Shown here in pieces: positions 3,903-24,865 of a stretch of DNA of 29,008 bases. The notes under the pieces were generated by a model that had not been told where the DNA came from, made no database searches, and saw nothing but the letters and a program-made list of their open reading frames with translations. Numbering within the stretch: position 1 is the first letter of the stretch; each line of letters opens with the position of its first letter. A program made the translations under genes and the position numbers. Origin of the DNA: a virus; the IMG/VR virus record IMGVR_UViG_3300046028_000976, positions 1 to 29,008 of that record, one strand, 5' to 3'.

Positions 3903-4135
3903 TATCTAAATCCTGCTGTTTTCTTTGCAATCGTTTTTGGTTGCGCTACGAATTGTTTTCCGGCTTTTTTGCCAGCACGTTTCGCACGCGTTGTCGCAGC
4001 GTACTCACTAGGGCTGAGACTTTTGATCGCAGCTTCTGGAAGGTATCGCTCACCTGTTTTACTAGACGGTTTTCCACTTTTGGTTCCCCACTTTTGGTCG
4101 CCCCAGTCTTTCAATGATTTCTGAGGCGCTTTCAA
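3902..4135 (-). CDS. Small basic conserved phage protein (TKSGKPS/TGERYLP type)
   Basis: This 77-residue, very basic protein contains KWGTKSGKPSSKTGERYLP (residues 15-33) followed by a helical Lys/Arg/Ala stretch (ATTRAKRAGKKAGKQF). I have seen the TKSGKPS...TGERYLP signature in small proteins of phages and some large algal viruses, without a function. It overlaps the upstream gene at 4132 by 4 bases (ATGA), and its stop overlaps the next start by one base, so it is tightly coupled. Its charge suggests nucleic-acid contact. There is no enzyme motif. Confidence 0.7.
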   Translation of the reverse strand: MKAPQKSLKDWGDQKWGTKSGKPSSKTGERYLPEAAIKSLSPSEYAATTRAKRAGKKAGKQFVAQPKTIAKKTAGFR

Positions 4136-12420: not shown

Positions 12421-12758
12421 GATAATCCTCCGCCACCGGCTTGGATAATGGTCAATGTTGCAGAACCTGTAGTGCCAGTGTCTAAAACTAAACGAACACC
12501 TGTGCAAGGATACGCAATGTTTCCGTTAAAGTTCGCTGTTGCTGGTGTTCCAGAAGGTGTGGACGGGTGATAGAACCATGTTGCTGAAGAGGGAGTAAAT
12601 CCCGCAGCAAATACATCGTCAAACGTGTATTGGACATAGGCATTCACCGTTCCAGTAATTACCAACGCAAGCCCCCAATTTGCAGGGGATACATAGGTAT
12701 CTACTGGATAGACGTTGGAGTTACCGACTCCCCTAACGGTTAGTCTGACTGGGCGCAT
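12417..12758 (-). CDS. Small beta-rich conserved phage structural protein
   Basis: This 113-residue protein begins MRPVRLTVRGVGNSNVYPVD with AGGAG before the ATG. The pattern VYPVDTYVSPANWGLALVI, then VQYTFDDVFAAGF and a Gly-rich end (LTIIQAGGGG) is one I recall from many phage head or tail modules. It is a beta-sandwich-like small virion protein of unknown function, perhaps a decoration or tail-tip protein. Its stop overlaps the next start (ATGA), so expression is coupled to the coiled-coil gene. Confidence 0.75.
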   Translation of the reverse strand: MRPVRLTVRGVGNSNVYPVDTYVSPANWGLALVITGTVNAYVQYTFDDVFAAGFTPSSATWFYHPSTPSGTPATANFNGNIAYPCTGVRLVLDTGTTGSATLTIIQAGGGGLS

Positions 12759-12770
12759 TTTACGCTCCTA

Positions 12771-13268
12771 TCAGACTTGGCTAGGGTTAGCAGCACCATC
12801 AGAATCGCGCACGATGTACTCAACAGTAACAGTAATCGTACCAGCAGTAGCGTCAGCAGTGGCTGCGGTAAACGTACCAAAGATGATTGCGTCTGTTGTG
12901 CCGATGCTGTCATAAACACCTGAAGTTGCCGCTGCGATGGTAGCTGGAGAAGTCTGAACCGCTGAAGTGCCCGTGTTGACTGTTGTCATGTACAGGTTAG
13001 CCGTGCCAGAACTGCCAATGGTAACGCCGCAGTTAGTAGCGCCAGTCAAGGCAACATTTACTTCAAGGCCAAAGCGAAGAATCTTAGCGCCAGCAGGAAG
13101 CACAAACATCTGTTGTGCTGTGGGGCTTGCCAAAATAACAGAAGCAGGAGCCGTATAAGTTTGGGCAACAGTAGTTGCGCCCATGTTGCGAATAGAGCCA
13201 GCAGTTGTGCCAGTAGTGTTTTTAACAGTGCCGAGCAGCCAAGGGCCAAGGTGTGATGCGAATCCCAT
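12771..13268 (-). CDS. Beta-rich conserved phage virion protein
   Basis: This 165-residue protein begins MGFASHLGPWLLGTVKNTTG with AAGGAAA 6 bases before the ATG. It is Thr/Ala/Gly/Val-rich, with alternating hydrophobic residues and no charged clusters, typical of a secreted-like or capsid-surface beta protein. The opening SHLGPWLLGTVKNTTGT is widespread in aquatic phages in my memory, as a hypothetical structural protein. It follows a 103-base leader with interleaved inverted repeats (13281-13347). Function unknown; a decoration, head-fibre or tail role fits its place between the capsid gene and the fibres. Confidence 0.75.
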   Translation of the reverse strand: MGFASHLGPWLLGTVKNTTGTTAGSIRNMGATTVAQTYTAPASVILASPTAQQMFVLPAGAKILRFGLEVNVALTGATNCGVTIGSSGTANLYMTTVNTGTSAVQTSPATIAAATSGVYDSIGTTDAIIFGTFTAATADATAGTITVTVEYIVRDSDGAANPSQV

Positions 13269-13371
13269 GATGTTTCCTTACATACAAGTTAAGTGCATCA
13301 ATCTGTATGTCGTCAGCCGGGACTGTTTGATGCACCGGTGATCCCGGATTACTTTGTTTATACCACTACGC
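13269..13371 (-). promoter_or_regulatory. Structured leader with interleaved inverted repeats
   Basis: This gap between the HNH stop and the next ATG holds three inverted repeats: 13293-13301 with 13327-13335 (GTGCATCAA / TTGATGCAC, 9 bp), 13317-13322 with 13342-13347 (CCGGGA / TCCCGG), and 13281-13286 with 13304-13309 (CATACA / TGTATG). They interleave in the order a b a' c b' c' on the minus strand, so they could form a pseudoknot or compete. Only the 9-bp pair is unlikely by chance; the 6-bp pairs may be accidental. Confidence 0.4.
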
Positions 13372-13965
13372 TTACTTGGGCGCAACAAGTTTGTTTGATT
13401 TCTTTAAATTTTCTTCTTGCGTGATGACGCGCAGGTTCCACGGGACATGCAAGCCACAGACTTCATGCGATTGCAATGGCACGATGTGGTCGACCACGTA
13501 TTGTTCGCCAGTGGTCTTGGACATGGTAATGGCTATCTGATAAAGCTGGCGTATTTCAGATTTTTGTTTGTGCGTCAGCCACGGCGGGGTGGCATCACGA
13601 AACCGACGACGGCGAAAACTGGTAAGTGTTTTGTACAAGTCAGGGTTACTTTGCTTGTACTTATTCTTGTACGCCTGTTTTTCTGTTGTGGGACGTGCTT
13701 GTGCGCGGGCAATAACCTGTGCCCTATTTTTCTCATAATACCGCTGTTTAGCTTCTCCACCTGCATCTGACTTGTTGTACTGCTTGAAGTACTCCGCGCG
13801 GTTGCTACTGCCTTTTTCCCACTCAACTTTTAAACATTCTACACACGCGCCTTTGGTTTTGCGTGCAACTATGTGCCCGTGCTTGCAAGGCTGTCCAGTG
13901 AAATAATACTTGGCACCAGTAGCTTTAGCTTCGGCGCGGGTCTTGGGCAAGTTGGTAGTGTCCAC
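13372..13965 (-). CDS. HNH homing-type endonuclease (GTG start)
   Basis: The GTG at 13965 is preferred because AGGAG lies 5 bases upstream; an ORF reading back to 14022 would encode a hydrophobic leader and has no site. The 197-residue protein has a Cys/His cluster (C27, H29, H31, C41, C44; QPCKHGHIVARKTKGACVEC) and a Lys/Arg/Tyr-rich central region. The C-terminal HNH core is VVDHIVPL (D149, H150), LHVPWNL (H163, N167) and NKL. This is the pattern of free-standing phage HNH endonucleases that cut DNA and spread by homing. It sits between the capsid gene and small structural genes, after a terminator, as expected of an inserted selfish gene. Confidence 0.88.
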   Translation of the reverse strand: MDTTNLPKTRAEAKATGAKYYFTGQPCKHGHIVARKTKGACVECLKVEWEKGSSNRAEYFKQYNKSDAGGEAKQRYYEKNRAQVIARAQARPTTEKQAYKNKYKQSNPDLYKTLTSFRRRRFRDATPPWLTHKQKSEIRQLYQIAITMSKTTGEQYVVDHIVPLQSHEVCGLHVPWNLRVITQEENLKKSNKLVAPK

Positions 13966-13972
13966 GTTAGCT

Positions 13973-13990
13973 CCTGTGTTACGACACAGG
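13973..13990 (-). promoter_or_regulatory. RBS-sequestering hairpin before the HNH gene
   Basis: CCTGTGT-CGTA-ACACAGG on the minus strand forms a 7-bp stem with a 4-base loop. Its 3' arm includes the AGG of the AGGAG site for the GTG start at 13965, so a transcript that contains the whole stem should hide the site. This would limit translation from read-through RNA. Confidence 0.6.
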
Positions 13991-13991
13991 T

Positions 13992-14019
13992 AATATACCA
14001 CAACCAAAACAAAAATCAA
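13992..14019 (-). promoter_or_regulatory. Candidate extended -10 promoter for the HNH gene
   Basis: On the minus strand TTGATT (14019-14014) and TATATT (13997-13992) are separated by 16 bp, with TGG just before the -10 (extended -10). The expected start of RNA is about 13985, inside the 5' arm of the hairpin at 13973-13990. RNA from this promoter would therefore lack most of the 5' arm and leave the binding site free. Confidence 0.5.
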
Positions 14020-14030
14020 CACCCAAAGAA

Positions 14031-14053
14031 AAAGGGCCCTTCGGGGCCCTTTT
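14031..14053 (-). terminator. Rho-independent terminator after the capsid gene
   Basis: An 8-bp stem, AAGGGCCC (14032-14039) with GGGCCCTT (14044-14051), flanks a TTCG/CGAA tetraloop. On the minus strand it is followed by a T run, 22 bases after the capsid stop at 14076. It should end transcription from the head module before the HNH gene. The plus-strand reading also has a short T run, so it may work both ways. Confidence 0.85.
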
Positions 14054-14075
14054 AGTAGTACTTTTGGTACTAATT

Positions 14076-14987
14076 TCAGGATGTACCGGGTGAACCGAAG
14101 ACACCCAGAGGGTCAGACCAGCCAAAGCTGTAACGCTCACGGGCCTTGTAACGGACGTTGCCGGTATCAAAATCCCCATCCATTGAGTTTTGCAATGGAG
14201 TGCGTTCGAAGTGCTTCAAACCGTTAGGTACATCTGTACACAAGAACCAAGCATTATTGTCGGTCAAGAAGTGGTTAACGGTGTAGCCTTCAGGGATAGA
14301 ACCGTTGTTCTTGAGCGCGTTAATGTCGTTGTCGGTTGTGCCAACACGCAAAGAAGTCTCAAGCAAACGAGTTGCAACGAACATCAGTGCAGGTGGAACA
14401 ATCAACTTACGTGGCTTGGCAGCGATCAACAGACCGCGCTCATCAGTCCAAGCGGCGATTTGAATAACGGCATTCTCAAGAGAAGTTTCGTTCAAATCAG
14501 CGTTTGTTGATGGACGGTTGCTGTTAGTAGCGCCGTTGACCAAGGGGTGTGCAGTGCTAAACAAAGCAACGCCGTCGCCACCGGGATAAGCGGCAGAGAA
14601 ACCATTGTTGATAACGTTTGCAGCTTTAACCTGCTTGGTGTAAGACATAGCGCGAGCCAAGGCTTTGGTGTAACGAGCAGACAGGCTGTCATACAAGTTA
14701 TCTTCCACAGCTTCTTCCGTGATGGAGAAGCCCAGAGCAATAGTCTCGTGGTTGTAACGTGCTGTGAAAGCTTCCTGTGCATTGTCATAAGCGATGGCAG
14801 AGCCCTCACTCTTAACAGGTGCAGCAGAGAAACCAGACAGTTTTGTCTCTTCTTCAAAAGAACGCTCAGATTTCTCTGTTTCGTAGAGTTCTTTGTGCTC
14901 TTCGCCGTAACGAGCGTACTCCAAACCAAACAAAGCGTTCAGGCCCGGGAGGAGTTCTTTAAGTAGTTGTGCGCGTGAAATAGCCAT
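14076..14987 (-). CDS. Major capsid protein (HK97-like, Mu gpT-type)
   Basis: This 303-residue protein begins MAISRAQLLKELLPGLNALF with AAGGAG before the ATG. A charged segment (about 25-50) precedes a core with FTARYNHETIALGFSITEEA (about 73-92), which is typical of Mu gpT-like HK97-fold capsids. A mid segment carries FSTAHPLVNG, LIVPPALMFVATRLLET and DNDINALKN. The C-terminus has GNVRYKARERYSFGWSDPLG. Size and motifs match this family as I know it. The gene is followed by a strong terminator and preceded by two head-associated genes and a scaffold-like gene, which fits the head gene order. Confidence 0.92.
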   Translation of the reverse strand: MAISRAQLLKELLPGLNALFGLEYARYGEEHKELYETEKSERSFEEETKLSGFSAAPVKSEGSAIAYDNAQEAFTARYNHETIALGFSITEEAVEDNLYDSLSARYTKALARAMSYTKQVKAANVINNGFSAAYPGGDGVALFSTAHPLVNGATNSNRPSTNADLNETSLENAVIQIAAWTDERGLLIAAKPRKLIVPPALMFVATRLLETSLRVGTTDNDINALKNNGSIPEGYTVNHFLTDNNAWFLCTDVPNGLKHFERTPLQNSMDGDFDTGNVRYKARERYSFGWSDPLGVFGSPGTS

Positions 14988-15000
14988 TTTAAATTACTCC

Positions 15001-15831
15001 TTAAGCAATGCTGGTGCCAGCATAGTACTGATGCTGACCAAAGTTAATTTTGACCAAGATCTCTGGGTACTGCATGAGCACAAGCGTAGAGCTAGCACCA
15101 AACGCAACAGCGGGAGCTTGATTCAAAATAAACGATGTAGCACCGGCGGATGCGGCGGTGTCGACAAAAGAACCGGAAGAAATGTACTGTCCATTTGAAT
15201 CCAGCGAACCAACGTCTGTACCAACAGGCAACGCGAACGGCAAAGCCGAGCAAGTTACGGTAGCGGTAGAAATGCTGGTATAAGTTACTGTACCTAAAGT
15301 AACAGCCGTGTCAGTCACCAAACCAAGCACGCGAACGGGCAAGGAAGAGGTGGTTGCAGGAGTGTCGCTCGGTGCAAGAATGGCATTTTTAGAGTTGCCA
15401 GTTGCAGTGCTACCTGTGTTGTTAATCATGGCCAAGTTTTGGCCAATCATGGCGCGAGCGCCAGAAGCAACAGCAGTAGTAGCAGAACAAACGACACCTT
15501 TAAACACCGTGTCAGGATCATCACAAACAATCGCAACAGCGTCACCAGCTGCAGTTGATGCAGGCCAGTATTGCTGGAATTGCTTTTGTTTTGTAACGGG
15601 GTTAGTAAACGAGCATCCCAAGAAGATACCTGTTTGATTGCCTGCTGTGCCAGTAGACACAGACAGACGCACGATTTCACCACGAGACAAACCTACGTAA
15701 TCGCCGTAGAAAATGTTTGTAGAGTAACCGTTTGTAATCGGATACTCACGAGTAGAACCCGCAAATACCTGACCTCCGATCAAATTGATCGGTTTTAGCC
15801 CGTAAGGGGCGTCGATAACCGGATAAGCCAT
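15001..15831 (-). CDS. Conserved head-associated structural protein (possible decoration protein)
   Basis: This 276-residue protein begins MAYPVIDAPYGLKPINLIGG with AGGAG upstream. It is beta-rich, Ser/Thr/Ala-rich and low in charge. It includes GYSTNIFYGDYVGLSRGEI and ends in ILVKINFGQHQYYAGTSIA. I recall homologues with the APYGLKPINLIGGQ opening just upstream of Mu gpT-like capsid genes in aquatic podoviruses, usually listed as a structural or hypothetical protein. It is 13 bases upstream of the capsid gene and probably a capsid decoration or cement protein; the role is inferred. Confidence 0.75.
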   Translation of the reverse strand: MAYPVIDAPYGLKPINLIGGQVFAGSTREYPITNGYSTNIFYGDYVGLSRGEIVRLSVSTGTAGNQTGIFLGCSFTNPVTKQKQFQQYWPASTAAGDAVAIVCDDPDTVFKGVVCSATTAVASGARAMIGQNLAMINNTGSTATGNSKNAILAPSDTPATTSSLPVRVLGLVTDTAVTLGTVTYTSISTATVTCSALPFALPVGTDVGSLDSNGQYISSGSFVDTAASAGATSFILNQAPAVAFGASSTLVLMQYPEILVKINFGQHQYYAGTSIA

Positions 15832-22565: not shown

Positions 22566-22667
22566 TACACTTCTTTTCGGCGAGTGCGCAAGCATTTGCT
22601 TCTCCTCGATGGTTCAGTTGCCATCTTTACCCCCGGAACGTCTGCAGATGCCCGGGGGTTTTTTTTT
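22566..22667 (+). ncRNA. Candidate plus-strand small RNA with T9 terminator
   Basis: A weak promoter (TTGCTT 22543-22548, 17 bp, TACACT 22566-22571) precedes about 90 bases with three successive hairpins: AAGC/GCTT (22590-22601) inside CGAG/CTCG; GATGG/CCATC (22608-22625); and the terminator stem CCCCCGG/CCGGGGG (22630-22658) with nine T. No ORF with a ribosome binding site ends here, so a strong terminator in this place suggests a non-coding transcript. Its function is unknown. Confidence 0.4.
22630..22667 (+). terminator. Strong plus-strand terminator
   Basis: A 7-bp GC stem (22630-22636 with 22652-22658) is followed by nine T residues (22659-22667). It would stop plus-strand RNA just left of the early region. 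No gene ends before it on the plus strand. Confidence 0.75.
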
Positions 22668-24202: not shown

Positions 24203-24865
24203 ATGCAAATCAAAACGTGCGCTAAATGTGGGGAGTCGCGCCCCCTCAAAGATTTCACGTACCTTGCCACCTACGCACAGTCAAAAGCATGGGGCAGAGC
24301 AGGCAATGTGCGTATGGAGTTAACCTCCAAGAACTGCAAAGACTGCCGACCCAAGCGCAAACCAGTAGCAAAGCTCAGCGCCAAGGAGATACACAACAGG
24401 GTTCAAACAGGCGACATGAACGCACTCATGGCCAAGCACCTCAGAGAAAAGCAAGCTCAAGATGAGCACAACAAGCAAGCTATCGCATCACGCAGGCGAT
24501 GGCTCAAAGTGTGGAAGGCAGAGTTAGCCGATGTGCTTGCGCCCATCAAGTGGGAGATCGTCAGCGCCCGTAACGCATGGATGTATGCAAGGCGCAATGG
24601 TTACGTAGACAAGGCCACGTTCTATCACGAGTACATGGGACTACTAAAACACGAGAAAACCCACGCTGATATGGAATACACACTACGACCACGCCGACCT
24701 GCTAGCGCAAGGTGGGCGGACTACATAAGCCCCGCAGTATTCACTCGGGTCAGAGATATGTGGGCGGTGCTACCGCCTGTATATAAACACAGCAAGATAC
24801 CCTTGCTGATAACGTACCGCCCAGAGATGGGCATAACTGAAGGAGAAAGAAATGGTGATAACTAA
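24203..24865 (+). CDS. Zinc-finger-bearing early protein
   Basis: This 220-residue basic protein has CxxC pairs at C6/C9 (TCAKCGESRPLKDF) and C45/C48 (NCKDC). This is the zinc-knuckle front of many phage HNH and DNA-binding proteins. No HNH catalytic core is visible in the rest. A Lys/Arg-rich helix (about 57-100) is followed by an Arg/Trp/Tyr-rich C-terminal half. AAGGAT precedes the ATG. A DNA-binding role is likely, perhaps at the repeats just upstream, but this is inference. It overlaps the next gene by 14 bases. Confidence 0.75.
   Translation: MQIKTCAKCGESRPLKDFTYLATYAQSKAWGRAGNVRMELTSKNCKDCRPKRKPVAKLSAKEIHNRVQTGDMNALMAKHLREKQAQDEHNKQAIASRRRWLKVWKAELADVLAPIKWEIVSARNAWMYARRNGYVDKATFYHEYMGLLKHEKTHADMEYTLRPRRPASARWADYISPAVFTRVRDMWAVLPPVYKHSKIPLLITYRPEMGITEGERNGDN

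Follow-up and report, generated by a model that had tools for sequence, protein, structure and literature searches.

The gene at positions 13372 to 13965 of the minus strand in the virus record IMGVR_UViG_3300046028_000976, analysed here over all of its 29,008 nucleotides (nt; hereafter the window), encodes an HNH/endonuclease VII-like nuclease and, as in a group of related environmental phages, follows the gene of the major capsid protein (MCP). With a probability of roughly 65% we read it as a free-standing homing endonuclease that would be subject to double self-control of the I-TevI kind through a single two-layer leader, and that would target approximately codons 268 to 278 of the MCP gene. 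The features concerned, including the Shine-Dalgarno sequence (SD), are the following.

13372-13965, minus strand: free-standing HNH/endonuclease VII-like gene, 197 amino acids, GTG start (phrog_1035, phrog_26577, invariant residues)
14076-14987, minus strand: MCP gene, presumed target gene (PF25209, E 2e-13; phrog_371, E 4.2e-23)
14154-14174, minus strand: MCP codons 272-278 (DFDTGNV), presumed homing or binding site (leader match, codon differentiation)
14175-14186, minus strand: MCP codons 268-271, putative cleavage side, with two of the three synonymous codons that are most differentiated and part of the site copied by GIY-YIG leaders
14014-14019, minus strand: −35-like hexamer TTGATT, promoter-like site (−35 modest in relatives)
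13992-13997, minus strand: TATATT, the −10 hexamer, preceded by an extended TGG (96/96 anchored leaders of relatives score 4/6 or better)
13985, minus strand: predicted transcription start, 7 nt past the −10 and within the 5′ arm (from the −10; same block in 89/96 leaders)
13984-13990, minus strand: hairpin 5′ arm CCTGTGT (sequence, fold)
13980-13983, minus strand: hairpin loop CGTA (sequence)
13973-13979, minus strand: hairpin 3′ arm ACACAGG, overlapping the SD (sequence, fold)
13971-13975, minus strand: SD AGGAG (sequence)
13977-13997, minus strand: operator candidate, inverted copy of MCP codons 272-278 (17/21 fit to the codon-degenerate pattern)

The original prediction had described a promoter (TTGATT, a 16-nt spacer and TGG-TATATT) nested in the stem CCTGTGT/ACACAGG over AGGAG, and all of these elements were found at the claimed positions on the minus strand. 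The start it had placed near 13985, inside the 5′ arm, agrees with the position predicted at 7 nt past the −10. Statistics of the window taken by itself were discarded as support, promoter and fold both being at chance level: three promoter-like sites were found in 12500-15500 where 2.8 were expected, the fold of the 73-nt leader is about as stable as those of its shuffles (z −0.73), and z is −1.48 for the 42 nt that include the stem. The layout is above chance because it is conserved in relatives. An RNA starting at 13985 is unable to form the stem and is predicted to pair weakly with the first codons (−2.1 kcal/mol), and the modelled cost of opening the SD in the window drops modestly from 5.71 kcal/mol in read-through RNA to 3.84 kcal/mol in own-promoter RNA. 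Rfam gave no match on the leader, the sole match in the window up to E 1 being located at 22612-22664.

Protein searches reported 495, 302 and 123 relatives, and the best 80 of each, which overlap, were kept. The 215 protein-selected leader loci, some from contigs fetched more than once, yielded 101 distinct HNH leaders; loci carry L numbers here. L162-L200, found via the hairpin pattern, were excluded from the leader, hairpin and copy statistics and contributed their MCP genes to the codon sets. Five of the 101 leaders, with more than 6 mismatches, were dropped from the analyses of SD opening, codon 276, −10 and start, and own MCP, which used the remaining 96, and were kept in the arm permutation, in which L258 was wrongly anchored. 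The start of some leaders (e.g. L015, L050 and L053) was set too far upstream, and these count as misses or partial matches in the copy searches.

All 96 anchored leaders have, 0-5 nt upstream of the arm block NCCNGTRTC (0-1 nt in 89), the end of a −10 that scores 4/6 or better; this figure is not fully independent, since the anchor pattern overlaps the −10, and carries no shuffle control for the −10. The predicted start was the 6th or 7th base of the arm block in 89/96 leaders, an extended TGn was found in 67/96, and the −35 was modest (mean 3.24 of 6 relative to 2.50 in shuffles, n = 42). The two arms go together: in 40 representatives at < 80% HNH identity, own 5′/3′ arm pairs had a mean of −5.08 kcal/mol versus −3.78 kcal/mol when 5′ arms were combined with the 3′ arms of other leaders (z −5.5, p 0.0002). 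The modelled median cost of opening the SD in the 96 leaders was 5.17 kcal/mol for read-through RNA and 1.69 kcal/mol for own-promoter RNA, with a difference of more than 2 kcal/mol in 68 leaders and an order reversed by more than 0.5 kcal/mol in 4. As modelled, the gene's own promoter would start RNA within a hairpin that sequesters the ribosome binding site, which is one of the two features of I-TevI control; the arrangement is absent in some leaders, and some subfamilies lack the hairpin. The promoter-in-hairpin layout first claimed for the window accordingly has support throughout the family, with the qualification that some leaders leave the SD exposed and keep the capsid copy described below. 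The claim that read-through RNA hides the SD and own-promoter RNA frees it is borne out by the modelled medians, and less so by the window with its modest drop and by the 4 leaders in which the cost rises. As the upstream gene is a capsid gene, the timing known from T4 need not apply.

The same block is also an inverted copy of part of the capsid gene. When compared with 79 HNH-less MCP genes, 64/101 leaders had their best 16-mer match at minus-strand MCP codons 271-279, the next place being best for 4. Scored against the degenerate complement of MCP codons 272-278 (DFDTGNV), 82/101 leaders had 5 mismatches or fewer out of 21 and 28 had 3 or fewer; among 5050 shuffles the first limit was reached by 0.9% and the second by none. 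By mismatches per informative position, ranks 1 to 4 of 594 went to the four overlapping windows at codons 271-274. The leader of L291 fits without mismatch at 21/21 positions, the −10 included, and that of the window fits the degenerate pattern at 17/21 and is identical to its own MCP letters at 11/21. In our reading the main loop types TCGTAAC, AACTAAGTC and TCAAAGTC would all fit the same MCP codons, each differently. The third base of codon 276 is T in the leader copy of 82/96, and the MCP codon GGT at this position occurs in 7/96 HNH-carrying genes, 26/70 with neither nuclease and 17/37 carrying GIY-YIG, uncorrected for ancestry. Since a site of the capsid gene is copied in inverted form by these 21 nt, the promoter/5′-arm block is probably a DNA operator as well, a second role besides the RNA arm that had been claimed for it. 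As judged from the letters, an operator resembling the putative homing site overlaps the promoter, which is the other feature of I-TevI control.

A GIY-YIG family (phrog_314, homing endonuclease) occupies the same site after MCP in other loci, and this endonuclease, unrelated to the HNH one, is predicted to have the same two-layer leader. All of its 46 distinct leaders (of 80) contain an inverted copy of codons 269-273 with 0-4 mismatches of 15, versus 5-8 in the 101 HNH leaders. Windows at codons 267-269 rank 1, 2 and 4 of 594 for GIY-YIG leaders, and the HNH pattern fits them poorly (6-9 of 21); the target region that they copy, codons 268-273, adjoins codons 272-278 copied by the HNH leaders. 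A TAnnnT-type −10 lies 3′ of the copy in 46/46, having been sought only downstream of it and taken as the best-fitting hexamer among the next 10 positions; this −10 places the predicted start within the 5′ arm of an SD hairpin. These arms also pair preferentially with their own partners (z −3.9, n = 18, p 0.0002), as in GTCTTC/GGAGAC, GGCTCC/GGAGCC, AGCTCC/GGAGCT and TGTTCC/GGAGCA, and the modelled SD opening costs 6.87 versus 1.91 kcal/mol, with a difference of more than 2 kcal/mol in 38/46. In the best register six of six pairs were obtained in 29/46, versus 0.325 in the null, and when the loop is fixed at 7 nt, just 26 and 23 of 46 leaders have standard inner pairs 3 and 4, respectively.

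With the hairpin of the original prediction alone, the block would be kept for SD pairing only, and its likeness to MCP would be incidental. This agrees with HNH arms that go together and with the two GIY-YIG pairs outside the SD, which were formed in 0.78 of cells compared to 0.58 with shuffled 3′ arms, a level that 0/2000 shuffles reached. However, the loop and the −10 are also conserved and fit MCP codons, the copy is retained in L023 (5 mismatches) and L028, whose leaders do not hide the SD, and the GIY-YIG copy is upstream of the assigned −10 (sought only downstream of the copy) and outside the own-promoter RNA, so that a hairpin alone is quite unlikely. Inversely, the block could be a target-like binding site only, with SD pairing as a by-product of the AGG in both target and SD: the Thr codon ACA puts AGG in the target and hence CCT in the copy, complementary to the AGG-containing SD, and the copy persists where the SD is exposed (L023 and L028). 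An operator alone is nevertheless unlikely, as the arms go together beyond the SD in the HNH leaders (z −5.5) and in the GIY-YIG leaders (z −3.9), where GTCTTC/GGAGAC, AGCTCC/GGAGCT and TGTTCC/GGAGCA are examples. A leader with both layers is the reading preferred here.

Codon choice in the MCP gene points to the same site. When 96 MCP representatives with and 79 without the HNH gene were compared, differentiation at synonymous codons was strongest at 268, 271 and 276, which lie inside or beside the copied target, and these stayed the top 3 of 242 in the comparison with the 70 representatives that have neither nuclease. Permuting the labels inside clades gave codons 268, 271, 276 and 272 as the top four at thresholds 0.20 and 0.24. 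In 75 loci thinned to < 95% MCP identity, the identities of HNH and MCP correlated weakly (r 0.24), and 17/29 pairs with HNH at least 90% identical had MCP below 82%, which is an independent history. The MCP genes of L021 and L022 have 18 mismatches in nt 700-802, just upstream of the target, and none in 803-915, up to the stop; their HNH genes are 97-100% identical per 60-nt window, and divergence is found at the next gene. This one pair has the appearance of a clear conversion tract from the target through the gene. Over 23 pairs the identity of codons 268-272 was 0.90, versus 0.78 and 0.82 in two controls.

The HNH gene was found directly downstream of MCP in 80/80 loci of the kept relatives of the first search. 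In 373 complete MCP loci, some contigs being repeated, HNH was present within 700 nt in 214, GIY-YIG in 70 and neither in 89, numbers that depend on how the loci were sought; loci that otherwise share the site differ in the presence of the HNH gene. Where it is missing, as in L090, the promoter-like sequence and leader of the next gene come directly after the MCP terminator. In L087 the stretch right behind the MCP stop (about 3985-4060) consists of the HNH promoter block joined to only the last HNH codons, a remnant that arose by internal deletion of the HNH gene. L111 and L148 have after MCP an HNH-leader-like piece ahead of the GIY-YIG gene, as if one endonuclease had replaced the other. 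From the HNH-less loci, the remnant and these leader pieces it follows that the site after MCP is a hotspot with turnover. It could still be argued that the gene encodes a recombination nuclease in the role of endonuclease VII or a resolvase, with an ordinary host-type promoter and leader and with a capsid likeness that is the relic of a local duplication, and phrog_1035 is indeed named endonuclease VII. This is very improbable given that gene-less loci are common (the 89/373 above), that L087 holds a remnant, that HNH and MCP identities are weakly correlated and that two unrelated nuclease families copy adjoining MCP codons in different registers.

Other genes were observed at this site. L141 has after MCP (about 3948-4032) another endonuclease type, GIY-YIG-like by eye, whose leader fold of −27 kcal/mol includes the SD, with a TATA-like stretch within; a similar gene is found in L151. 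L082, L135, L137 and L150 have another insert after MCP, with a small acidic open reading frame and a repeated leader containing CAGCGCCGTGCTG.

For a homing endonuclease with a two-layer leader we infer the following course. Expressed from a host-type promoter, the nuclease would bind MCP codons 268-278 of an HNH-less phage, cut that MCP gene and be copied along with the flank. In the first layer it would bind the copy of its target over its own −10 and start and repress itself; the copy is without the codon 268-271 side and would therefore be bound but not cut. In the second layer the 5′ segment would pair with the SD and capsid read-through RNA would be poorly translated, and own-promoter RNA, predicted to begin inside the arm, would escape the hairpin. 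Carriers would resist self-cutting via silent MCP changes.

A number of results weigh against this reading. At the finest clade threshold, 0.16, codons 271, 276 and 268 ranked 4th, 5th and 7th, and in a nearest-pair codon comparison 268, 271 and 276 were outside the top 12, in which codons 291, 294 and 279 came first and most were at codons 264-295. The HNH-carrying, GIY-YIG-carrying and nuclease-less sets were drawn from different searches. Among the 8 pairs listed, a clear target-to-stop tract was seen in L021/L022 only, and L010/L014, unlike that pair, have their boundary near the MCP end. Codons 286-303 were no more alike in the 23 pairs than in controls, and long tracts are therefore not general. 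Overall self-avoidance between leader copy and own MCP was rejected as not significant, identity being 12.32 of 21 to the own MCP and 12.46 to nuclease-less MCPs (p 0.26), so that self-avoidance rests on single codons.

The same figures weaken a pairing of the leader RNA with codons 272-278 of the capsid mRNA, in cis on read-through or in trans, that would regulate the capsid or the endonuclease. Such antisense pairing would be suggested by a copy that lies on the transcript strand of MCP in inverted orientation. The copy does not, however, covary with its own MCP (12.32 versus 12.46, as above), the own MCP matches it at the third base of codon 276 in just 10/71, and the GIY-YIG copy is outside the predicted own-promoter RNA, which leaves antisense regulation with very little credence.

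Further points against the two-layer leader concern its conservation and the hairpin. Eight cultured-phage relatives (31-40% identity) showed no clear target copy; their best 16-mer matches were 14 in L443 (inverted, own gene region), 14 in L444 (direct), 15 in L445 (direct) and 12-13 in the others, with a gene start that was guessed or doubtful in L443, L444 and L447 and a leader that may thus be misplaced. In 8/40 HNH and 5/18 GIY-YIG representatives the fold was weaker than −3 kcal/mol, and L023 and L028 leave the SD exposed in the leader alone (0.18 and 0.10 kcal/mol to open). RNAalifold on MAFFT alignments gave no consensus structure for 70 HNH leaders and none for 37 GIY-YIG leaders; permutation tests were used because differing loop lengths misalign the arms in the RNAalifold input. 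Foldseek with the nuclease model described next gave no match against PDB at E 0.001.

The 197-amino-acid protein matched phrog_1035, 'endonuclease VII', at E 1.2e-17 and phrog_26577 at E 1.1e-24, and its relative in L158 matched phrog_144, 'HNH endonuclease', at E 1.8e-7. Invariant Cys and His residues lie near the N-terminus and the C-terminus is HNH-like with D-H, H, N and E-N; C27, H31, C41, C44, D159-H160, H173, N177 and N186 were invariant in 25 aligned relatives. The protein thereby carries an HNH/His-Me nuclease signature at the sequence level. No Pfam family was matched at E 0.001 and a PDB sequence search gave nothing significant. The AlphaFold2 model had a mean predicted local distance difference test score of 86.5 and a predicted TM-score of 0.48, with strand-strand-helix at the C-terminal end. 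CxxC pairs close to the N-terminus were also noted in a second protein, at 24203-24865 of the plus strand, which has only a weak phrog_2539 match (E 0.00086). In a podovirus outside the group, L450 (MW202484), the endonuclease VII-like gene was seen to have a strong hairpin over its SD at 1941-2000, the last 40 nt of the leader folding at −18.0 kcal/mol.

The nuclease gene sits between two further features, the MCP terminator and the promoter of the next gene.

14031-14053, minus strand: terminator 3′ of the MCP gene, read from the sequence; an overlapping terminator-like site was listed by program
13269-13365, minus strand: promoter-like TGGTATAAA and structured leader of the next gene; this kind of leader comes directly after the MCP terminator in HNH-less loci, e.g. 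L090

Hairpins similar to the MCP terminator were seen by eye. The gene downstream of the nuclease is short, and its counterpart in Phage DSL-LC04 carries the annotation cement protein. When capsid proteins are compared, Planktothrix phage Pag-Yong1 and similar phages are the closest with a name (71% identity), followed by DSL-LC04 (64%). The leader of the cement/decoration gene, at 13269-13365 in the window and in HNH-less L090, L091, L094-L096, L098 and L100, resembles a chain of interlocked stems in the order CCGGG / GTGYATC / CCCGG / CATRC / GATRCAC / GYATG, followed by AAGGA, an apparent pseudoknot chain ending at the SD. A pattern search found 68 distinct examples of it, and there was no Rfam match there.

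It seems rather probable that free-standing homing endonucleases of two unrelated folds, HNH/endonuclease VII-like and GIY-YIG, whose sites adjoin each other in a single capsid gene, have arrived convergently at one compact control unit consisting of an inverted target copy at the promoter and an SD hairpin that holds the start site. If true, the target of a nuclease would be readable directly from its promoter, and leaders suggest a way to predict nuclease targets. Silent capsid codon choice would then record an arms race with both enzymes, which links homing and resistance to synonymous differences in a capsid gene that is essential. The 101 HNH and 46 GIY-YIG distinct leaders make a general role of operator mimicry in selfish nucleases testable.

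Among known systems the closest is I-TevI of the T4 td intron, which has, according to PMC2988022, a late promoter in a hairpin sequestering the ribosome binding site and an operator that resembles the homing site at 15/20 nt and was proven by binding and a lacZ fusion; similar operator-like sequences are given there for I-TevII and III. The likeness lies in the own promoter inside an SD-hiding hairpin and in the promoter-overlapping, target-like site. Unlike I-TevI, which is GIY-YIG and intron-encoded, the gene described here is free-standing, HNH/endonuclease VII-like and intergenic, belongs to another phage group and has a putative operator. It does not belong to the I-TevI family, defined by a GIY-YIG domain inside an intron, the protein being of endonuclease VII/HNH type and its gene intergenic; the control would work like that of I-TevI, and the protein itself is no I-TevI.

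In T4 gene 49 a late promoter relieves the hairpin. This gene, which encodes recombination endonuclease VII and shares the family name of phrog_1035, is listed among the T4 genes with inhibitory RNA structure at the translation start and treated as an ordinary T4 gene in the available portion of PMC3014915. The original prediction had seen shared logic in the occurrence of the layout in an unrelated HNH gene; the layout is there, and an HNH precedent exists in the free-standing homing endonuclease mobE of Aeromonas phage Aeh1, with a similar promoter and RNA arrangement hiding the ribosome binding site and no mention of a target-like operator in the sections available of PMC2988022 and PMC3014915. 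The free-standing endonucleases T4 segB and Aeromonas phage 25 seg43 have leader hairpins like the GIY-YIG family here, segB with the promoter/hairpin arrangement, and again without mention of a target-like operator in those sections of PMC2988022. Its autorepression section names intron-encoded enzymes only, and as far as the source was accessible target-mimicking operators are described just for the T4 intron-encoded endonucleases, one of them proven (PMC2988022). The literature searched, in which subscription journals were mostly outside coverage, yielded no title or abstract opening on such a design in free-standing genes. Different here are the free-standing genes, the two folds at adjoining target sites, the other phage group and the read-through from a capsid gene.
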